From IMG/VR virus record IMGVR_UViG_3300031841_000518, positions 1 through 37,677 of that record: DNA of 37,677 bases. One strand, given 5' to 3'. A model generated the notes under the pieces. It had not been told where the DNA came from. It did not search any database and saw only the letters and a program-made list of their open reading frames with translations. The position numbers were made by a program, and so were the translations under genes. Source of the stretch: a virus. Positions 19,841 to 35,596 of the stretch are shown here, one piece after another (the first letter of the stretch is position 1; each line of letters begins with the position of its first letter).

Positions 19841-21394
19841 TTAGTAGAATTTTCTACTCTCCCTATTATAAATCTCTTGCTCTCGTTTGTCAAGCCAAGT
19901 ATCAGCTCCATGTGAAACATACCCACCATTTCTCATCCATATCAATGCTTGTGTAAGTGTGTCCATATAATCATCATGAAGTCCTGCTGGAAAAGCTCTA
20001 GTTTCATCTATAACTTCCATAGCCCAATCTTTTTTAAAAGGGGCAAATATTCGTCTGTTATGAAACAAAGATGTTATAGAATATGCTCTAGCAACTTTAT
20101 CTCTGTCTGGTTGAAACTCAAATATAGGCAAACCTGTTAAACGTAAGTCTTGTATCAAGGATTGACCCGAAGCTTTCTTCTCTATCAGTATAGAATCTGG
20201 ATTATGTTGATTATATTTTTTAACTGCTTTCTCTCTAAGTGTCGGATAATCCCATCTTCCTTTTTCTGCCCCCAATAATATTAAGTTAGGTATATCTAAT
20301 CCTTTAGTAAACACACCCCATGTAGTTATCGCAGAATAATCTGCAGTTGTTCGTGTAGAAAATGCAGTATCCCATGATTGTATTATGTATTCACACTCAG
20401 GTGGGTCTGGATTCTCCCAGTTCTGCCACCAATCTAGTTTTATTATGTTACCTTCTTCTGCAGATGGAGCTTGACCGTACAATGCATCAAATTTAAATGG
20501 GGGTGTATTGTTTTTTGTGCGGATTATTTCTTCAGTTGACCAATGAAATCCGTTTTTCTCGTCAGGTTCTGGCCAAAATGACTCACCTAACTGCAATTCT
20601 GTGTATTTTTCCGATAAATAACCCTGTTTAATTAGTTTTTCACGCGCATCTTCTAGTTTTTCTAAAGAATCTGTAGTATTTAGGGCAGGAATACGCACAA
20701 CTTCCCACGAATCTGACATAGGAGAGCTATCTTCTAAAGATAATAGGTGTCCAGCTAAGTCTCTTTCATGCCATCTTGTCATAACTATAACAACTTTACC
20801 ACCAGGCATAAGTCTTGTACGCAATCCAGAAGCATACCACTCGTTTAGAGCCTCCCTTCTAGCTTTTGAAAACGCATCTTGCTCTGATATTGGGTCATCT
20901 ATGATTGCTAAGTGTGCACCAAAACCTGCAATACCAGATCCTGAACCAGCTGCTAAGAATGAACCTGCATCTTTACCTTTGTGTTGAAGACTCCAGCTGT
21001 TAGCAGAACGATTATCTTTACGAATGTTTATTTGTGGAAAGATAGATTTGTATTGTGGGGTATTTACAATATCACGTATGGCGCGGCCGAACCTTGTTGC
21101 AAGATCATCACTGTGTGATACAGCAATCTCTTGCCAATATGGATTCTTACCCAGTGCCCATGCGGGAAAATATGTAGATGTTATTAATGATTTGCTTGAA
21201 CGGGGGGCAACAAATACCATCAAACGGTCTGACTCCCCACTTGCAATTTTCATTAGTTGATCACATAGCAATCTGTGATGCGGCCCAACACTAAAGGATG
21301 GGTTCATCAACATAACGAAAGCCAAGAGATCTTCTCTTGCTTGTTGTACGGCTACTCTGGTAGCGGCGTTTCTATCTTCTGTCGTTAAGGACAT
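19841..21394 (-). CDS. terL: Terminase large subunit
   Basis: 517 aa packaging motor. The N-terminal ATPase has a degenerate Walker A (VAPRSSKS, about residues 62-69, rather than PPRHGKS), Walker B LAIIDDPI near 162-169, and coupling motif VIVMTRWHE. The C-terminal RNase H-type nuclease has acidic motifs QSWDTAFS, DSILIEKKASG and LHDDYMDTL. I place the start at ATG 21394 with GGTGA upstream; a GTG twelve bases earlier also fits. Lies between terS-linked genes and portal, the standard packaging order. Confidence 0.93.
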   Translation of the reverse strand: MSLTTEDRNAATRVAVQQAREDLLAFVMLMNPSFSVGPHHRLLCDQLMKIASGESDRLMVFVAPRSSKSLITSTYFPAWALGKNPYWQEIAVSHSDDLATRFGRAIRDIVNTPQYKSIFPQINIRKDNRSANSWSLQHKGKDAGSFLAAGSGSGIAGFGAHLAIIDDPISEQDAFSKARREALNEWYASGLRTRLMPGGKVVIVMTRWHERDLAGHLLSLEDSSPMSDSWEVVRIPALNTTDSLEKLEDAREKLIKQGYLSEKYTELQLGESFWPEPDEKNGFHWSTEEIIRTKNNTPPFKFDALYGQAPSAEEGNIIKLDWWQNWENPDPPECEYIIQSWDTAFSTRTTADYSAITTWGVFTKGLDIPNLILLGAEKGRWDYPTLREKAVKKYNQHNPDSILIEKKASGQSLIQDLRLTGLPIFEFQPDRDKVARAYSITSLFHNRRIFAPFKKDWAMEVIDETRAFPAGLHDDYMDTLTQALIWMRNGGYVSHGADTWLDKREQEIYNRESRKFY

Positions 21395-21485
21395 ATACTT
21401 CGTCACCCCAAATCACAAGTTGCGTAAAAGCATCTTGTGGAGGATTGTTCGGATCGTATATATCCAGATCTGGATTTAAAATCAT
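21372..21485 (-). CDS. 37-aa acidic peptide overlapping terL start
   Basis: MILNPDLDIYDPNNPPQDAF then TQLVIWGDEVYVLNDRR. It is Asp/Pro-rich with a short hydrophobic strand. AGGAG sits eight bases before ATG and the frame overlaps the terL start, a coupling arrangement. No family recognised; possibly a translational leader or a minor packaging factor. Confidence 0.5.
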   Translation of the reverse strand: MILNPDLDIYDPNNPPQDAFTQLVIWGDEVYVLNDRR

Positions 21486-24035: not shown

Positions 24036-24063
24036 TTGACAATGCTAATTATATCTTTATGAT
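24036..24063 (+). promoter_or_regulatory. Promoter for the amidoligase operon
   Basis: TTGACA (24036-24041) and TATGAT (24058-24063), spacer 16. It sits four bases after the preceding stop and about 57 bases before the amidoligase ATG, so this gene set has its own transcription start. Confidence 0.7.
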
Positions 24064-24119
24064 TGGCATTTTCAAATATTAGATGAGCTGATATTTGTAA
24101 TAAATTGTGTGAGGTAAAC

Positions 24120-25304
24120 ATGACTTTATTAACTTATTTAAGAAATGATCTTTTGCTAGATGATCATGCGGTTAGAGATTTTGCAAGAGGTATTTTGCCA
24201 GATCATATCTCTCATGAATATGACTACGAGCAATTGGCTAGATTTTTTAGACAATTGAGAAGATTTAATCTTAGAAATCATGGTGGTTTTATTTATGATT
24301 TGATGAGTAATGCTGATCTTGATGAATGTGGGGATTGTGACTCTATCATGTCAATGTGTGACAGCTATTCAGTAAATCACGGAGATAATCATGTATGTCA
24401 AAGTTGTTGTGATGAAAATTATTATTATTCAGAACACGGAGATACATACAGACACAATGATGAATATGATGAGTATGAGGGCTATGATGAATATACAGGA
24501 ACTTATAGCTATGATACAAATGTATTAGATTATTGTGGTTTCAACAAATTACCTAACGAAAATGCTAGTCAATTTTACGGTATTGAGTTAGAAGTTGAGA
24601 GAAGAAAAGACTGTCCAAGTGATATTGCAGATGACATAAATCGTATGTATAACGGTTTTGCTATCTGTAAATCTGACGGCTCACTTGACAATGGCTTTGA
24701 GATTGTGACAGGTCCAAGCACTATTGGATATCACAAACTCAAATGGGAAGAGTTTTTCAATTCTAAAACTTGTCAAGAGAATCTTAAAGGTTGGAATACT
24801 GATACGGCAGGATTGCATATCCATATTGGTAGAAAACATTTAACACCTTTGAACATTGGTAAGATACTTGTCTTTATCAATGACAACAGCAACTATCATT
24901 TTATTAATGATATTGCAGGTCGATCTTCGGATCAATGGGCAAGGAAATCACCCAAAAAAGTATCTGATGTAATGCGACCAACAGGGGAAAAGTATGAAGC
25001 TGTGAATACAAATCATCACGCAACTATTGAACTTCGTATATTTCGATCTAATATTACAAGGCATGGTTTCTATCGTGTCTTGGAATTTACAGATGCTATG
25101 GTAAACTTTGTCAAGCAAACCAATTGCACGACTACAAGTTTACATTACACAGCATTTTGTCGCTATGTTGCAAGAGAGCAACAGCGATCACAATATCCTA
25201 ACCTCTTGGCTTGGCTTATTCGTAAAGGCTATGTCAAAGATGTTAAACCCTCTCGTATCGTGGTTGATACGGAAGAAGAAACAGTTACTAACCAAGTGGG
25301 GTAA
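24120..25304 (+). CDS. Amidoligase-like enzyme with N-terminal Cys-rich domain
   Basis: 394 aa. The C-terminal two thirds match the putative amidoligase family (glutamine-synthetase-like carboxylate-amine ligases): FYGIELEVE (152-160), KSDGSLDNGFEIVTGP (184-199), TAGLHIHIGR (229-238), and TIELRIFRS (302-310), which hold the acidic metal ligands, the His-x-His and the terminal Arg expected. Before it is a Cys cluster (C70, C73, C80, C93, C96, C97) resembling a zinc ribbon, and an Asp/Glu/Tyr-rich linker. The ATG at 24120 has GAGGT five bases upstream. Followed after two bases by a glutaminase-type gene, suggesting glutamine supplies the amine. Substrate unknown. Confidence 0.78.
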   Translation: MTLLTYLRNDLLLDDHAVRDFARGILPDHISHEYDYEQLARFFRQLRRFNLRNHGGFIYDLMSNADLDECGDCDSIMSMCDSYSVNHGDNHVCQSCCDENYYYSEHGDTYRHNDEYDEYEGYDEYTGTYSYDTNVLDYCGFNKLPNENASQFYGIELEVERRKDCPSDIADDINRMYNGFAICKSDGSLDNGFEIVTGPSTIGYHKLKWEEFFNSKTCQENLKGWNTDTAGLHIHIGRKHLTPLNIGKILVFINDNSNYHFINDIAGRSSDQWARKSPKKVSDVMRPTGEKYEAVNTNHHATIELRIFRSNITRHGFYRVLEFTDAMVNFVKQTNCTTTSLHYTAFCRYVAREQQRSQYPNLLAWLIRKGYVKDVKPSRIVVDTEEETVTNQVG

Positions 25305-25306
25305 TT

Positions 25307-26266
25307 ATGTGCTTAATAATAGCAACTAAAAATCCAAAGCAACTTTCATCAGCTTTAATGGAAACAGCTTATGAAAACAATTCCGACGGCTTTGGTTTGA
25401 TGTTTGTTCACAAAGGACAACTTCATACTCGGAAGATCGTTCCAAAAACTTTCAACGATATTGAAAAGTTATGGGATAAATATAAATCTATGGATACACC
25501 TATGGGTATTCACTTTAGATTTGCAACCAATGGCGATACTAATAAATCAATGTCACACCCTTTTGAAGTATTATCAAAAGCAAAAGGTGATGACAGGGAT
25601 CTATGGGTAATGCACAACGGACCACAACTACCAACACCTATGATTGACAATAACAAATCTGACACACATCAGTTTGTCAAATGGATACTACGACCTCAGT
25701 TGTCAGCTAATCCTAAATTGCTTTACAATGCAGAATGGCAAGAGATGATTGAGGAACTCATTGGTACGGACAAGTTATTATTTCTTGACAGCAAGACCAA
25801 GGAGTTTGTTATCTTCAATGAAGATCAAGGTACTGACATGGACAATGTGGGTTGGTTATCCAACACTTATTCCATACAGCCTACATCATATGGTAAGCGT
25901 GACAAATACTATGATGACAAAACAGATACAATCAAAGATGTATCGGATAGTAGCAAGTGGTGTTACGAAGATGATGATTGGGGTTATGGTAGCTACGGCA
26001 ACATAACACGACATCACTACGGACATTATAATCGTAATGGTGTAGAAGTTAAGCCTACACCTTTGGCTAGTGGTATCGGAGTTCAAGAACAATTGAACAT
26101 ACCATTACCAAAGCAAGACGCAGATGAAACTATGTGGAATGGTAAAACATTACGCATGGAAGACCTGTATCAAATGGACAAACAAGAAATAATAGAACTG
26201 TGCGAGGAGAATCCTGTTGGTGTGGGTTGCCTTGTCAGTGAAGAAATTGTGGGGAACAGAGCATGA
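25307..26266 (+). CDS. Class II glutamine amidotransferase-like protein
   Basis: 319 aa Ntn-hydrolase. The mature N-terminal nucleophile would be Cys2 after Met removal (MCLIIATKN). Supporting motifs: NNSDGFGLM (24-32), GIHFRFATNGD (67-77), HPF (84-86) and MHNGPQL (102-108), the class II glutaminase signature. Catalytic residues appear intact. Residues about 190-250 are Asp/Tyr/Gly-rich and unusual. It likely releases ammonia from glutamine for the adjacent amidoligase, or acts as a related amide hydrolase. Confidence 0.78.
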   Translation: MCLIIATKNPKQLSSALMETAYENNSDGFGLMFVHKGQLHTRKIVPKTFNDIEKLWDKYKSMDTPMGIHFRFATNGDTNKSMSHPFEVLSKAKGDDRDLWVMHNGPQLPTPMIDNNKSDTHQFVKWILRPQLSANPKLLYNAEWQEMIEELIGTDKLLFLDSKTKEFVIFNEDQGTDMDNVGWLSNTYSIQPTSYGKRDKYYDDKTDTIKDVSDSSKWCYEDDDWGYGSYGNITRHHYGHYNRNGVEVKPTPLASGIGVQEQLNIPLPKQDADETMWNGKTLRMEDLYQMDKQEIIELCEENPVGVGCLVSEEIVGNRA

Positions 26267-26979
26267 GCAATAAATATTTTAAACCAAGCATTGCATATTG
26301 GTGGAATGAGCCAATCACTTTTGCGATCTCTTTATCAAATCGCACAAAAGAATTTGGCAAGACTAAAGTTTTAGGCTCAAGAGTAAATACTAAAGACAAG
26401 TTTGAATATGTGTGGGCAGATCCTGTGAAAGCAGGATTGCCTAACAACATACATCTAAAGAATATTAGCTATGGGTATGTGCCTAGTGGCGAATCTTCTA
26501 CTTCAATTAGGTGGCTTGATCGTGACGGTAAGATACCTGTAGATATTATAAAGTATATTGTATTCAATGGTATTCGCATACGCAAAGCAGAATATGATGA
26601 GTTATACGATCCTAATACTAAACAATATCCAAGGACTCTTGTAAATCTAAAAAGCAATAGTACTTTACAAGTATCTTTACCACAATTAGTTGATAAATTA
26701 AAACGAATGGGTGAGTGGAATCTTATTGGCAACAAGCAATTAACTTCTACATCTATTAGAAAATTTGATTTATCTGAATGGATTGGTAACTTTCAAAGAG
26801 GTCACGCTACTGACAGGTTACGAATACTGAAAGCGTGGGGGCATAGTATCAATATACCTAAGAAAGCTATGGCATTATCAATGCACAGAGCAAACTATCA
26901 AGATAAGTTTAGTAGCTTTGCGTGTCTGTTTATGGAAGGACAACACGCAAGTGTAAAGGCTTATGACATGGTAGTATAA
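26263..26979 (+). CDS. Unknown protein of the amidoligase cluster
   Basis: 238 aa, basic, no recognised domain. Contains KPSIAYWWNEPITFAISLSN, WADPVKAGLPNNIHLKNISY and a C-terminal helical region IPKKAMALSMHRANYQDKFS. The start overlaps the glutamine amidotransferase stop (ATGA), so the two are co-translated and may act together. It could be the acceptor-recognition protein or an unrelated phage protein. Confidence 0.6.
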   Translation: MSNKYFKPSIAYWWNEPITFAISLSNRTKEFGKTKVLGSRVNTKDKFEYVWADPVKAGLPNNIHLKNISYGYVPSGESSTSIRWLDRDGKIPVDIIKYIVFNGIRIRKAEYDELYDPNTKQYPRTLVNLKSNSTLQVSLPQLVDKLKRMGEWNLIGNKQLTSTSIRKFDLSEWIGNFQRGHATDRLRILKAWGHSINIPKKAMALSMHRANYQDKFSSFACLFMEGQHASVKAYDMVV

Positions 26980-27151
26980 CACCGACATGACACCGACAGA
27001 ACACGAGGGTACTATGCTTACTGTCAAGGGGGCAGTTCAGTGTAATATTATAATAAAAATAATAATAAATTTTAAATCGTTAATAGGGATTGCACATGCC
27101 CCCAACCCTCGATATGTTGACCTATCGAGTTCTTTCGGTGTTCTATCGGTG
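26980..27151. repeat. Mirrored 11-base repeats around an AT-rich core (origin or regulatory element)
   Basis: Left: CACCGA at 26980 and 26991. Right: TCGGTG at 27135 and 27146. Both pairs have exactly 11-base spacing and face each other; consensus unit CACCGAyAGAA. Inside are further inverted pairs: CGAGGGT (27004-27010) with ACCCTCG (27105-27111), and GGGGGCA (27028-27034) with TGCCCCC (27097-27103), enclosing an A/T-only-like core (about 27042-27085). A dyad CTCGATA / TATCGAG lies at 27108-27129. No gene fits here. Confidence 0.68.
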
Positions 27152-27160
27152 CTTTTTCTA

Positions 27161-27188
27161 TTGACAAATTACAGGAGTATGCTATGAT
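27161..27188 (+). promoter_or_regulatory. Putative promoter after the mirrored repeats
   Basis: TTGACA (27161-27166) and TATGAT (27183-27188) with a 16-base spacer, the same boxes as the promoter at 24036. If used, transcription starts past the ATG of the 30-aa frame at 27184, so that frame would be read only from upstream transcripts. Confidence 0.5.
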
Positions 27189-27276
27189 TATAATTACATT
27201 ATTAACTTTTATGTGTGGTATGGTATGTGGCTTTATCGCACTCGGAACTTATACCTTTGTGAAGGGGGGCAGATGA
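27184..27276 (+). CDS. 30-aa membrane peptide
   Basis: MIIITLLTFMCGMVCGFIAL then GTYTFVKGGR: one hydrophobic span with basic end. AGGAG lies eight bases before ATG. It ends two bases before the next membrane peptide. Overlaps the -10 of a putative promoter, which makes either call uncertain. Confidence 0.5.
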   Translation: MIIITLLTFMCGMVCGFIALGTYTFVKGGR

Positions 27277-27277
27277 A

Positions 27278-27352
27278 ATGGAAATTGACAACTCAGTTTT
27301 GTATCTTATTTTTAGTCTTATTGGTATACTCATCATCTGGTATCTGAAATGA
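27278..27352 (+). CDS. 24-aa membrane peptide
   Basis: MEIDNSVLYLIFSLIGILII ends WYLK: single membrane helix with acidic N-terminus and a Lys end. Stop overlaps the next ATG (ATGA) and a G-rich stretch precedes the start. A frame one base shifted (ATG 27273) is also open for 24 codons but is less membrane-like at its end. Function unknown. Confidence 0.5.
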   Translation: MEIDNSVLYLIFSLIGILIIWYLK

Positions 27353-27867
27353 TTATCGGAAAGTATATACCTGACAATGCGATACAAGTTAGATATGTTC
27401 ATCCTCAGTATGAACAAGATGAAGACGGCAACGAATATGTATGGAACGAAGAAGAAATGACAGATGTTGAAGCCTTGATTCGTGAAGTTAACAGAAATCA
27501 AATACCTTTATACTATCGTCGCAGAGTATCTGACTATGCTCGTGAAGATACGCGTAGGTGGAACAGATATATCAATGATAATAACCGACACTATAAAGAT
27601 AGTCTTTTATATGTTCGTGTTAAGAAAGTAGGTAGACGAGTTCTTGTTGTCTATGACAAAGCCTATTGGGATAAGATACTTGCTTCTGGTAAAAAGATTA
27701 CAAGTAATATGGGTGCTGTGAATCGCAACAACATAAGACACAGACCTCGTCACATAGTAATGTCACCAGATGTATCACCAGATGTACAAGAATCTATAGA
27801 AGATTTTGTAAGATCGTTGGATGAAAATACGCATACAACATGGGGGGAGGATCATGAAGAAAGATGA
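27349..27867 (+). CDS. Hypothetical protein
   Basis: 172 aa, charged. YEQDEDGNEYVWNEEEMTDV, a basic region YYRRRVSDYAREDTRRWNRY, then strands LLYVRVKKVGRRVLVVYDKA and a C-terminal SPDVSPDVQESIEDFVRSL. No family recognised. Translationally coupled to the 24-aa membrane peptide (ATGA). Confidence 0.6.
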   Translation: MIIGKYIPDNAIQVRYVHPQYEQDEDGNEYVWNEEEMTDVEALIREVNRNQIPLYYRRRVSDYAREDTRRWNRYINDNNRHYKDSLLYVRVKKVGRRVLVVYDKAYWDKILASGKKITSNMGAVNRNNIRHRPRHIVMSPDVSPDVQESIEDFVRSLDENTHTTWGEDHEER

Positions 27868-28120
27868 ACTACAGATTGTATTGATTGATTGGCTCGACGC
27901 TATGTCGGATGATAACTCATGGCAAGAGTTAAAAGAATTAGAAGAACAAAAGCTAAGACCTGTCACAAGTGTCGGATATGTTATCAAAGAAGATAAGGAT
28001 TCCGTCATTCTTGTGTCATCTTTTGATGAAGAAAGTCAATGTGGTGGTGGGGGTGTTGTTATCCCTACCAATTGTATTACAAATAAAACAGTATTGAAAG
28101 GACAAATTAATGTCGAATGA
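27854..28120 (+). CDS. Conserved small phage protein
   Basis: 88 aa from ATG 27854 (GGGGAGGATC upstream), overlapping the previous gene by 14 bases. Pattern: IVLIDWLDAMSDDNSWQELK, then TSVGYVIKEDKDSVILVSS and VVIPTNCI. The D-W-x-D-A ... T-S-V-G-Y-x-I-K-E-D arrangement is familiar from many phage and prophage hypothetical proteins. Likely a small beta-barrel; function unknown. Confidence 0.65.
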   Translation: MKKDELQIVLIDWLDAMSDDNSWQELKELEEQKLRPVTSVGYVIKEDKDSVILVSSFDEESQCGGGGVVIPTNCITNKTVLKGQINVE

Positions 28121-28526
28121 TTATGATTGGAGAACTAATCTATTCGTCTATGGCACACTAAAAAAGAACGGCAGATTACACAGCGTGCTAGGTAATTCAT
28201 CTGAATTTGTTGGCACATATGTGACAGCAGATAACAAGTATGATTTGTTTAGTTACGCAAAAAGTTTTCCTATTCTTGTGGCAAGAGAGAAAGGATTTAG
28301 AATACGGGGTGAGGTGTGGTCAGTCACACCAGAAACTATGGATAGAGTAAATGCTATCGAGAGTGGATCATCATACTACCCTTTCCAAATAGATGTGATG
28401 AATGAAGTAACAAAAGAATATGAGGTTGGATCTGTGCTAGTCTTTATGTTCCCAGGGAACAACCATAGGCTTATGCCTGTTAAAGATATTGAAGCAGTAG
28501 ACAACATCAAGGAGTGGTCAATATGA
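28110..28526 (+). CDS. Gamma-glutamylcyclotransferase (AIG2/YtfP)-like protein
   Basis: 138 aa with the GGCT fold: LFVYGTLKKNG (11-21, the YGTL substrate loop), FVGTYVTADNKYDLFS, FRIRGEVWSV (63-72) and the catalytic acid region VNAIESGSSYYPF with E84. These enzymes cyclise gamma-glutamyl amines to 5-oxoproline, or work as gamma-glutamylamine cyclotransferases. In the same operon as an amidoligase and a class II glutaminase, it may remove or process a gamma-glutamyl intermediate. Overlaps its neighbours on both sides. Confidence 0.82.
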   Translation: MSNDYDWRTNLFVYGTLKKNGRLHSVLGNSSEFVGTYVTADNKYDLFSYAKSFPILVAREKGFRIRGEVWSVTPETMDRVNAIESGSSYYPFQIDVMNEVTKEYEVGSVLVFMFPGNNHRLMPVKDIEAVDNIKEWSI

Positions 28527-28702
28527 TTATAGATTATGCGGCTTACATTTTGTTTATGTTAGGCTTGACAGCCTTCCCATTAATCTCTATTGTAGGTTTT
28601 ATTACTGAAGAAGAAATGCGAAATCCGTTCGTGTTTATTATGATAATATGTTATATATTAATAGGAGTTAGAATATGGTCGAACCTTACAAGAAAAAAAT
28701 AG
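28523..28702 (+). CDS. Two-span membrane protein
   Basis: 59 aa. Span one IILFMLGL-type stretch (about residues 6-27, IDYAAYILFMLGLTAFPLIS), a short acidic loop TEEEM, span two FVFIMIICYILIGVRIW, basic C-terminus. ATG 28523 overlaps the GGCT stop (ATGA) with AAGGAG upstream, so I prefer it to the GTG at 28514. Holin-like topology, but no lysis genes adjoin. Confidence 0.62.
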   Translation: MIIDYAAYILFMLGLTAFPLISIVGFITEEEMRNPFVFIMIICYILIGVRIWSNLTRKK

Positions 28703-32454: not shown

Positions 32455-33531
32455 ATGGGTGAGTATGCAGTACACAAGAATGTAACTTCTAAATTAATCG
32501 ACGGTGCAAAGATTGCAATCGTCATGGACTATCCAACAGTTAACGAAGTTCGTTTAAATAAAATACTTGCAGGAGATTACATTCTAGGCAAGGTATGTAA
32601 ACTAGCGGGGATACAGCTGGAAGAATGCATGCTCACCCACGTCTTTCAAAGACGACCAGCACAAGAAAACTTACAAAACTTTTTTCACAAGAGAAGTGAA
32701 TACAAGGCTTTGTGCAAGACAACTGAGTGGCGATCACCCTATCCGTCTTCGACGATGGGGTTTCTTAAACAGGAGACGCAACCACATCTAGAAAGATTGT
32801 ACAAGGAAATCAATGACGCTAAACCTAATGTTGTAATAGCACTGGGGGCAGTATCGTTGTGGGCACTAACAGGGTACGATAAGATTGGAACTTATAGAGG
32901 GGCGCTCATCTCCTCTAACACCTCACACATCAATGATGATATAAAAATAGTTCCTTCTTACGCCCTGTCTAGTGTGTCAAAAAATTATGCATTGAGATCT
33001 ATATTATATTCTGATTTCAAAAAAGCAAAACAAGAATCCGAAACAAAAGAAATAAAAAACATCGAAAGAGAACTCTGGATCGAGCCGAGTATAAACGACC
33101 TAAATAAATTTAAAGAAGACTTCATAAGAAGAGATAACGCAGATCATCCTTTGGCATTTGATATTGAAACAGCAGGTGGGCGAATAACATGTATAGGGTT
33201 TGCCCCCTCATCTACCCATGCCATTGTAGTACCATTCACATATGGATACTGGAAGAAAGATGATGAAACAAAAGCGTGGAATTGGGTTAAAGATTTATTA
33301 GAAGACAAACAAATTGCAAAGGTAGCACAGAATCAATCTTACGATGTATCATGGTTAAAATATAAACAGGACATAGAAGTTAAAGGTATAGTGCATGACA
33401 CGATGCATGCACAGCATTCGTTGCAACCAGAAATGGAAAAAGGTTTAGGCTTCTTAGGCTCCATATACACTAACGAGGGTGCATGGAAAACTCTAGCCAA
33501 GTTTTCTCACAGCACGAAAGCCGATGAATAG
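32455..33531 (+). CDS. UDG-like domain fused to the front half of a polymerase A 3'-5' exonuclease
   Basis: 358 aa with two regions. Residues 1-185 resemble uracil-DNA glycosylases of the family 4 type (GKVCKLAGIQLEECMLTHVF; VVIALGAVSLWALTG; GTYRG), but the acidic GEAPG-like motif is replaced (MDYPTVNE) and the usual HPS is PSY, so glycosylase activity is doubtful. Residues 230-345 carry exonuclease motifs I (FDIE, D236, E238) and II (NQSYD, N293, D297). Motif III (YxxxD) is missing here and is found at the start of the polymerase gene 536 bases downstream. Thus the exonuclease is split between two proteins. Confidence 0.78.
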   Translation: MGEYAVHKNVTSKLIDGAKIAIVMDYPTVNEVRLNKILAGDYILGKVCKLAGIQLEECMLTHVFQRRPAQENLQNFFHKRSEYKALCKTTEWRSPYPSSTMGFLKQETQPHLERLYKEINDAKPNVVIALGAVSLWALTGYDKIGTYRGALISSNTSHINDDIKIVPSYALSSVSKNYALRSILYSDFKKAKQESETKEIKNIERELWIEPSINDLNKFKEDFIRRDNADHPLAFDIETAGGRITCIGFAPSSTHAIVVPFTYGYWKKDDETKAWNWVKDLLEDKQIAKVAQNQSYDVSWLKYKQDIEVKGIVHDTMHAQHSLQPEMEKGLGFLGSIYTNEGAWKTLAKFSHSTKADE

Positions 33532-33899
33532 TGAAGCGACCAAATTATTTCTCTGCCAAAGATGTAGACGAGAAGTGGGAAGAACAAATAAATACAATAC
33601 GTTTATGGCGTGCTGTATTAGATCAGACACTGCAAGATTTAGTTTACGAAGGTAAAGGAAAAGAAGATAAGAAGGCTCATTTATCTGCATGGGAGTGGGT
33701 GAATGATGACAACGAGGACAGTGATTTTAATTTTATCTGTGACTTAGCAGATCTAGATGGAAGAACAACTCGTAAAGAAATTTATAAACTAATGGAGAAA
33801 TTTTATGGTAGTAAGTATAGAAGAAAACTTGAAAGAAGCCTTGAAGATATTAAAAGGTCCAAGAGAGAAAGAGTACGGAGACAAAAAAGAAAATCATGA
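33531..33899 (+). CDS. Conserved phage protein, inserted between polymerase halves
   Basis: 122 aa, GTG start overlapping the previous stop (TAGTG). Core IRLWRAVLDQTLQDL, then LSAWEWVNDDNEDSDFNFIC and DLADLDGRTTRKEIYKLME. This is a familiar phage family (W-x-x-V-L-x-Q-A-L-x-D-L ... F-x-x-I-C-x-L-x-x-L-D) usually near replication genes; role unknown. The very basic tail overlaps the next gene by 95 bases, unusually long for this genome, and may be frame-dictated. Confidence 0.62.
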   Translation: MKRPNYFSAKDVDEKWEEQINTIRLWRAVLDQTLQDLVYEGKGKEDKKAHLSAWEWVNDDNEDSDFNFICDLADLDGRTTRKEIYKLMEKFYGSKYRRKLERSLEDIKRSKRERVRRQKRKS

Positions 33900-34083
33900 T
33901 AACATAGCTACACTGTGGACAGCGTATTTAGGACCTACTATTACGGCACACGATGTGGCAGTCATGATGTTATTATTAAAAGTAGCAAGGACTAAATCAC
34001 CTAACCCAACAAAAGATACTTATGTAGACATGGTAGGATATTCAGCTATAGCAGGAGAATTATTAAATGATAAAAGTAAGTAA
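33805..34083 (+). CDS. DUF6378-like phage protein
   Basis: 92 aa: ILKGPREKEYGDKKENHDNI, TLWTAYLGPTITAHDVAVMM, KVARTKSPNPTKDTYVDMVG. This matches the conserved phage domain DUF6378 (R-x-x-x-Y-G-D ... W-x-A-Y-L-G ... D-V-A-x-M-M ... D-x-W/Y-V-D-x-x-G-Y) found beside nucleotide metabolism and replication genes. GGAGAAA precedes ATG. It overlaps both neighbours and lies between the two polymerase halves. Confidence 0.8.
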   Translation: MVVSIEENLKEALKILKGPREKEYGDKKENHDNIATLWTAYLGPTITAHDVAVMMLLLKVARTKSPNPTKDTYVDMVGYSAIAGELLNDKSK

Positions 34084-35596
34084 TAATAATTTAGATCTAT
34101 CACCTTACAACGATGATCAGATCAACTGGATATATTGTGCATTAGATTGTGCTTTGACTCAAGAGATATGGGAAAAAATATCTGAAGACTTTGATGATAC
34201 GACAAGAGGCACATATGATTTTGAAATAAAAAGTTTAAAGCCAGCTATGGCTATGACCTTGCGTGGCTTACGTGTTGATGAAGACAAAGTAAAAGCAATT
34301 AGAAAACCTTTACAAGAAAAAAGATTACAACTAGAAAGAATGTTACATTTGTTTTCAAGATCTGTAAATGGCAAAGATTTAAATCACAATAGTCCAGTGC
34401 AACTTAAAAAATTATTATACGAAGATCTTAACTTACCACCTGTAGTTTCATACAAGAAAGGTAAACAAAAAATATCTACGGATCGTGATGCTTTAGAATC
34501 GTTAGCAGAATCCTATCCAAGAGCAAGACCTTTTTGCAAAACTATCCTGGCGTTGCGTGACATAGATAAAAATCTTTCAGTTCTTAGCTCCAAGCGTGAC
34601 ACGGATGGAAGAATAAGATGTTCATACAATGTGGCAGGTACAGAGACAGGCAGATGGTCTTCAAGAGAATCACCGTGGCGTACTGGCACAAACTTACAGA
34701 ACATAACAAAAGATTTACGAGAAGTATTTATACCTGATGAAGGTAACAAAATGTTTTATGCTGACTTAGAACAAGCTGAGTCTCGCGCCGTTGCATACTT
34801 GGCTGCCGATCAAAACTATATAGATGTATGTGAGAGTACAGATTTGCATACCGAAGTTGTGAAAATGGTATGGCCCAATCTAGGTTGGTCAGATGATCCC
34901 GTTCAAGACAGAGCGTTAGCTGATAGAAAATATTATTTACATCATACCTACCGTGACATATGCAAACGAGCAGGACATGGAACTAACTATGGAGTGTCAC
35001 CTCACTCTTTGGCTAGACAAATAAAGATCAAAGTGTCGCAGGCTACACGATTTCAGTTGCTTTATTTTGGTGGTGTGGTATCATCCACATCTTTAGAGAG
35101 ATGGCATAAACAAGATCCACAAGGTGGATACAAAGAATTAATAGATCAAGGAGAGAAGATAGGAAAAGATACACTAAAGATAAGGGGGGCATTCCCAGGC
35201 ATACGAGTATGGCATTCAGCTATACAAAGAGAGTTGCTTGAGAAAGGTAGTCTTGTCACGCCTATGGGTAGACGTAGACACTTTTGGGATAGACTTAAAG
35301 ATGCTTCTACTTTACGTGCGGCGATAGCTTTTGTCCCACAGTCTACGATAGGTGACTTACTTAATCTAGGATTGTGTAGAGTATATGATGAACTGAAGGA
35401 CTCTGGTATAGAAGTGTTAGGTCAAGTGCATGATGCGATACTAGGCCAGTGTCATAAAGATAAGATAGATGAACTCATGCCAATGGTGCTTGAGAAAATG
35501 CACAATCCATTGACGGTCAATGGGCGTGAAATGATAATACCATCCTCTGTAGAAGTGGGTGATAACTGGAAGGACATGATAACATGGAAGAAATAA
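34067..35596 (+). CDS. polA: Family A DNA polymerase, polymerase domain with exonuclease motif III
   Basis: 509 aa. Residues 23-27 (YCALD) are exonuclease motif III, separated from motifs I and II encoded upstream. Polymerase motif A: YADLEQAESRA (D233). Motif B: R296, K300, H304, Y308-G309, the R-x3-K-x3-X-x3-YG helix with His at the position of E. coli F762. Motif C: QVHDAIL (H455, D456), with Ala where Glu is common. TGRWSSR and NLQNI are present. AGGAG precedes ATG, so the half is translated on its own. Replicates phage DNA; the split likely requires assembly with the 32455 product. Confidence 0.9.
   Translation: MIKVSNNNLDLSPYNDDQINWIYCALDCALTQEIWEKISEDFDDTTRGTYDFEIKSLKPAMAMTLRGLRVDEDKVKAIRKPLQEKRLQLERMLHLFSRSVNGKDLNHNSPVQLKKLLYEDLNLPPVVSYKKGKQKISTDRDALESLAESYPRARPFCKTILALRDIDKNLSVLSSKRDTDGRIRCSYNVAGTETGRWSSRESPWRTGTNLQNITKDLREVFIPDEGNKMFYADLEQAESRAVAYLAADQNYIDVCESTDLHTEVVKMVWPNLGWSDDPVQDRALADRKYYLHHTYRDICKRAGHGTNYGVSPHSLARQIKIKVSQATRFQLLYFGGVVSSTSLERWHKQDPQGGYKELIDQGEKIGKDTLKIRGAFPGIRVWHSAIQRELLEKGSLVTPMGRRRHFWDRLKDASTLRAAIAFVPQSTIGDLLNLGLCRVYDELKDSGIEVLGQVHDAILGQCHKDKIDELMPMVLEKMHNPLTVNGREMIIPSSVEVGDNWKDMITWKK

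Follow-up and report, generated by a model that had tools for sequence, protein, structure and literature searches.

The viral record IMGVR_UViG_3300031841_000518 (positions 1 to 37,677; hereafter the window) carries a 4.4 kb gene cassette within its early/replication region. The cassette encodes a divergent amidoligase with a predicted glutamine synthetase (GS) fold, a class-II glutamine amidotransferase (GATase), an orphan protein of 238 amino acids (aa), here called p238, and a gamma-glutamylcyclotransferase (GGCT), and it is a reduced, divergent variant of a gene set known from phages. This set is said to have been described since 2009, by Iyer et al. (2009), as a phage 'peptidoglycan modification cassette'. 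We consider a carboxylate in the peptide of peptidoglycan precursors to be the most probable target of the amidoligase/amidotransferase/GGCT chemistry, with a probability of about 0.5. The open reading frames (ORFs) and coordinates of the initial annotation, made from the sequence alone, proved correct in an ORF check of the window.

The amidoligase starts at the ATG at 24120, and a GTGAGGT just upstream is kept in close relatives. Taken alone, the protein scores 13.8-13.9 bits against Pfam PF12224 (Amidoligase_2), below the curated cut-off of 22. PF12224 is matched by 18 of the 31 amidoligase family members at E<=0.1 (best 3.5e-30), and phage relatives of the window protein pass the cut-off. 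A PF12224 family search on its own record gave no match, with its controls equally silent. Across the 31 sequences, residues G154, E156, E158, D186, S188, E194, H233, H235, R268, N296, E304 and R306 are invariant. The predicted model (predicted local distance difference test, pLDDT, 76) aligns over residues about 146-372 with YbdK and its relative, which rank best (Z 11.4-11.5), and with glutamine synthetases, PafA and plant glutamate-cysteine ligase (Z about 9-10.3); the best Foldseek E value is 1.3e-4. Since its own PF12224 score is below the cut-off, while other members pass and the fold agrees, we call the protein a putative divergent GS-fold amidoligase, outside curated PF12224 membership. 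The Cys-rich domain noted by the initial annotation is a CxxC...CxxC module, whose four cysteines (C70, C73, C93 and C96) are invariant in 27 sequences. A scan of genome contigs with the amidoligase returned one remote locus, in a metagenome-assembled genome of Clostridiales, which gives no hint of the host.

The amidotransferase by itself also falls short of Pfam cut-offs. Its family profile matches GlmS/GFAT structures (E about 2e-6), and 21 divergent sequences share C2, R71, T74, H84, N104, G105 and D119 without exception, so that both the N-terminal cysteine and the glutaminase motifs are intact. The GGCT matches PF06094 (E 2.9e-13) and the structure PDB 1v30; its YGTLK motif and an acidic catalytic residue, a Glu near residue 84, are conserved. 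The three family assignments made initially are thus borne out, and the catalytic residues checked, the loss of which on alignment had been named as a test, are retained in all three enzymes.

We scanned viral contigs with each protein, which yielded 15 loci for the amidoligase, 35 for the amidotransferase, 3 for p238 and 22 for GGCT, partly overlapping. The order amidoligase, amidotransferase, p238, 172-aa protein, 99-aa protein, GGCT is kept in every sufficiently long contig of the marine lineage to which the window belongs; contig L036 has its GGCT divided between two frames. Because the whole early region is syntenic, gene order within this one lineage is weak evidence, and linkage in independent phages is the stronger kind. 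Two or three of the enzymes are clustered in unrelated phages of Mycobacterium, Arthrobacter, Sinorhizobium, Salinivibrio, Aeromonas and Methylophilales. Amidoligase and amidotransferase genes are adjacent in MEP402, MW202733, Marvin and the viral contig L015, and Arthrobacter phage Salgado has GGCT, amidoligase and amidotransferase directly adjacent. Amidoligase and GGCT lie within a few kb of each other in phiM6, a Melvirus, LAh_9, CW02, Slicky01 and MW202615, most of which have the amidotransferase as well, while GAP52 combines GGCT, amidotransferase and an ATP-grasp. A tblastn search of phages with the window GGCT gave no match, and the GGCT-bearing fusion protein of Phage C75C1 was therefore used as the query; all six of the records opened that had been reached by GGCT similarity alone (6/6) have other cassette genes nearby.

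Amidotransferase and GGCT are joined in a single polypeptide in Phage C75C1 (L019:6001-6897) and MW202828 (L067:5001-6218), both annotated merely as gamma-glutamyl cyclotransferase. With these fusions, a shared pathway is difficult to dispute. A 574-aa protein upstream of the MW202828 fusion was considered as an amidoligase and not accepted, its alignment being a 15-residue stretch. The initial annotation had treated the three families as a joint set, to be abandoned if related phages carried the genes far apart or singly at random. The genes are mostly not scattered, and the recurrent clustering and the two fusions support the set, although some phages with an amidoligase do not have all three enzymes.

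The association itself is not new, because the cassette has been described repeatedly (PMC5498523, PMC10580990, PMC6256558, PMC3890496, PMC11945000). Papers that call it a peptidoglycan modification cassette propose that it changes the host surface and so guards against superinfection (PMC5498523, PMC6256558, PMC11945000), and it is listed in OM43 phages (PMC10580990) and LUZ24-like phages (PMC3890496). The initial annotation held that the families had been linked before and that their targets in phages were unknown; the linkage is confirmed, and the association is in fact well described in phages, with peptidoglycan as the conjectured target. In Pseudoalteromonas phage HP1, transcription of the cassette follows infection at once (PMC7082346). 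When a P. aeruginosa phage was put through directed evolution, both evolved lines carried missense mutations in the genes for the amidoligase and the amidotransferase (PMC11450229), a pairing consistent with joint function.

The window shares with the cassettes of phi-RIO-1, phiEco32, LUZ24/tf/UFV-P2, CW02, phiM6 and PSA-HP1 a GS-fold amidoligase, a class-II amidotransferase and a GGCT among early genes. It differs from the phi-RIO-1/LUZ24 type in having no detected RimK-type ATP-grasp; nor was a COOH-NH2 ligase recognised, in a search whose controls were silent. In their place stand p238, the proteins of 172 and 99 aa and a non-coding element that is conserved. Its amidotransferase is shorter than the LUZ24/GAP52 type. 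Since no RimK-type ATP-grasp was found, we do not file the locus as the full (RIO-1/LUZ24) form; both the ATP-grasp and the COOH-NH2 ligase vary between cassette phages, the former not being universal. Among sequenced phages, the OM43 phages MEP401/MEP402 and Mycobacterium phage Marvin encode some of the nearest protein relatives (about 27-31% identity). Like the window, they have the amidoligase followed by an adjacent or overlapping amidotransferase; unlike it, they have other neighbours, and no GGCT was found beside the pair. Salgado (Laroyevirus) resembles the window in having the three enzymes with no annotated ATP-grasp or COOH-NH2 ligase beside them, and differs in the adjacency of all three, in their order and in its remote similarity. 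Phage C75C1 has the same three predicted activities with similarity in each domain; besides its amidotransferase-cyclotransferase fusion, its amidoligase alignment does not include the CxxC...CxxC domain.

How such a set might act can be outlined from the families and folds. The amidotransferase would hydrolyse glutamine through Cys2 and hand over ammonia, or else a glutamyl group, to the amidoligase, whose gene lies next to its own. With ATP, the amidoligase would convert a target carboxylate to an acyl phosphate and then to an amide or isopeptide bond, and its zinc-ribbon-like domain, perhaps with p238, could help to bind the target. By cleaving off gamma-glutamyl groups in the form of 5-oxoproline, the cyclotransferase would limit or recycle the product. 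The outcome may be a host envelope altered early in infection, for example against superinfection. A joint scheme of this kind had been suggested initially, together with modification of a host component. It is plausible and agrees with the families, residues and linkage, although the reaction itself, its direction and any channelling between partners are read from the families; that a host component is modified, we infer. The hosts of cassette phages are both Gram-positive and Gram-negative, as would fit a universal target, peptidoglycan for instance. The MurT-GatD partners of S. aureus are a Mur ligase and a class-I amidotransferase, families other than those of the window, and offer an analogy only. 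The analogy lies in lipid II amidation, where a glutaminase and an ATP-dependent ligase act on a peptidoglycan glutamate carboxylate (PMC3267633).

Several points weigh against peptidoglycan as the target or against a single three-enzyme system. The choice of peptidoglycan precursors, the leading published hypothesis, rests on published conjecture, and no direct biochemical test of the cassette's reaction or target was found in the literature searched. The searches of the window for a RimK-type ATP-grasp were negative with positive controls, and those for the phiEco32-type COOH-NH2 ligase (PF14395) gave no match, with the controls also silent. Partial sets occur: Bacillus phage 055SW001 has the amidoligase and GGCT with no recognised amidotransferase nearby, and in C. 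difficile phage AR1086-1 and a Microcoleus phage neither partner of the amidoligase is recognised nearby. Finally, the positions of promoter-like sites and of the non-coding element suggest that GGCT may be transcribed separately.

The main rival is modification of host or phage proteins, in which ammonia, an amine or an amino acid would be placed on side-chain carboxylates in a PafA- or glutamylation-like reaction; p238 would be the adaptor or the substrate, and GGCT would undo gamma-glutamyl links. We regard this as unlikely. The predicted amidoligase fold does match PafA and Dop, and p238 is translationally coupled and the fastest-evolving member, as a host-specific adaptor might be; yet these matches are no better than those to metabolic ligases, with YbdK first (PafA Z 9.2, against 11.4 for YbdK and about 10 for GS), no carrier or tag protein was identified, and p238 has no known fold. 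A narrower version, in which the amidoligase and amidotransferase form a protein-modifying machine and p238, chosen against a target in the host, serves as their specificity factor or dedicated substrate, seems to us rather improbable. YbdK, a small-molecule gamma-glutamyl ligase, is the best structural match, and GmaS is also among the matches. Both would suit auxiliary metabolic genes that make and degrade gamma-glutamyl amides or glutathione-like compounds and steer nitrogen to the phage. Planctomycete Phage-ZRK32, with the same enzymes and a glutathione synthase, is proposed to help host nitrogen use; in the available excerpt of that source the proposal derives from whole-phage growth effects, without enzyme tests (PMC10945688). 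As the zinc-ribbon-like domain suggests a macromolecular target, such a metabolic role is also a doubtful prospect.

That the genes are chance neighbours, accessory genes acquired independently without a common pathway, could explain why some phages have only one or two of the enzymes and why two ORFs without assigned function and small ORFs stand between p238 and GGCT here. The fusions and the recurrent clustering in many unrelated phage groups, including the exact three-gene adjacency in Salgado, make this very unlikely. Least probable of all, and hardly to be expected, is a role in DNA base modification, where the ligase would decorate a modified base for nuclease evasion. Amidoligase-type enzymes have been suggested in base hypermodification, the locus lies among early replication genes, and the window encodes a 2-oxoglutarate (2OG)-Fe(II) oxygenase and a carbamoyltransferase. 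These last two, however, are at the far end, on the opposite-strand structural side, and no usual base-modifying enzyme was recognised among the ORFs scanned. A divergent, reduced cassette acting on peptidoglycan precursors thus remains our preferred reading.

The protein p238 follows the amidotransferase in all relatives whose contigs cover the region, and the coupling to the glutaminase gene claimed initially holds (Table 1). Between the window and distant lineages its identity is mostly 15-27%; in the same comparison the amidoligase keeps about 43-54% and the amidotransferase 55-68%. Searches outside the lineage by Pfam, PHROGs, PDB sequence, phage tblastn and PADLOC gave nothing useful. 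For its predicted model, neither Foldseek (PDB or BFVD, E<=0.001) nor VIA-align (Z>=2) returned a match, weak evidence because the model reaches a pLDDT of only 68. We considered p238 as a hidden ATP-grasp, as a COOH-NH2 ligase and as the counterpart of a Melvirus cassette protein of unknown function; all three were rejected, as it shows no similarity to the cassette ATP-grasp or to the other two.

Table 1. Features of the cassette and its flanks, in window positions
Feature	Position	Strand	Basis or remark
Promoter-like site TTGACA-16-TATGAT before amidoligase	24036..24063	+	Conserved non-coding gap in close relatives
Putative divergent GS-fold amidoligase	24120..25304	+	ORF, family profile, predicted fold; N-terminal CxxC...CxxC (zinc-ribbon-like) domain
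Class-II glutamine amidotransferase, Cys2 nucleophile	25307..26266	+	ORF, family profile, invariant residues; C-terminal part variable
p238, orphan 238-aa protein	26263..26979	+	ORF; start overlaps amidotransferase stop
Conserved non-coding element, long-hairpin potential	26977..27160	+	Conservation and compensatory changes between lineages
Second promoter-like site TTGACA-16-TATGAT	27161..27188	+	Conserved in relatives; ambiguous because of overlap with 30-aa ORF
30-aa hydrophobic (membrane-type) ORF	27184..27276	+	Conserved in relatives
24-aa small hydrophobic ORF	around 27273-27352		
172-aa protein without assigned function	27349..27867	+	Position kept in relatives
99-aa protein without assigned function	27821..28120	+	Position kept in relatives
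GGCT/GGACT (gamma-glutamylcyclotransferase)	28110..28526	+	PF06094
59-aa hydrophobic protein	28523-28702		After GGCT; conserved

The initial annotation described the set as one operon with its own promoter at 24036. In close relatives the non-coding gap around this site is conserved, although promoter-like sites as a class are in only modest excess in the window (47, against 35 ± 6 in shuffles). A dyad, AATGCTAAT...ATTGGCATT, lies over the site (24036-24075; AA[T/A]GCTAAT...ATTGGC[A/T]TT). Its arms covary between the window and relatives, it occurs as a single copy in the window, and it is a possible operator. The reading as one operon is supported in part: amidoligase, amidotransferase and p238 are contiguous, with a gap of 2 bases between the first two. 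GGCT may belong to a second transcription unit, because the non-coding element and the promoter-like site at 27161 precede the GGCT-side genes. In most relatives TTGACA-16-TANNAT follows the element, its 3' part lying over the start of the 30-aa ORF in close relatives; the conservation of this site is ambiguous, since that part overlaps the ribosome-binding site and ATG of the ORF. The tiny hydrophobic 30-aa and 59-aa proteins flank the 172-aa, 99-aa and GGCT genes and might place the GGCT side at the membrane.

The element at 26977-27160, between p238 and the GGCT-side genes, is built of inverted repeats nested in one another; its ACCGA/TCGGT iterons are spaced about 11 bases apart, its inner arms read GGGGGCA/TGCCCCC, and its AT-rich core is conserved. 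Its minimum free energy is -57.2 kcal/mol (z -4.5). In a whole-window energy scan it is absent from the 25 lowest-energy 190-nt windows, most of which fall at minus-strand 3.6-4.4 kb, and the case for the element therefore rests on conservation and covariation rather than on energy alone. The arms differ in sequence between relatives and keep their complementarity. In ten lineage groups, none of 20,000 reassignments reached the summed own-arm pairing, related sequences being not fully independent, and RNAalifold found two-sided changes in 15 of 21 pairs. The plus strand folds better in 15 of 23 sequences (mean difference -7 kcal/mol), a slight argument for an RNA on the gene strand; within the subgroup of the window itself, the two strands fold about equally well. 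Rfam gave no match, and a pattern built from divergent members occurs once per contig, in this lineage only. The element could be a structured or regulatory RNA, a site of RNA processing (RNase III-type) or, at the DNA level, an element such as a replication origin.

The early-type setting proposed initially is upheld by the genes 3' of the cassette, which encode an exonuclease, an AAA ATPase, a protein resembling single-stranded DNA-binding protein and a split family-A DNA polymerase. The polymerase occupies two ORFs (32455-33531 and 34067-35596; region 32455-35596), with a DUF6378 protein between them. On the minus strand, on the structural-gene side, lie a protein with a carbamoyltransferase N-terminal domain (1809-2897) and the 2OG-Fe(II) oxygenase (717-1289). 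The terminase large subunit (19841-21406, minus strand) is closest to those of Pelagibacter phages HTVC027P/HTVC023P (37-40% identity), a weak hint, from sequence likeness, of the host.

The cassette is found in phages of very different hosts, and the present lineage offers a small version of it, with one ligase, one glutaminase and one cyclotransferase. Should p238 prove to be a specificity factor, the locus would represent a phage ligase with an exchangeable adaptor and not a cell-wall enzyme set. Minimal relatives that can be cultured, Marvin on M. smegmatis and Salgado on Arthrobacter, bring the question of the target within reach of direct tests.

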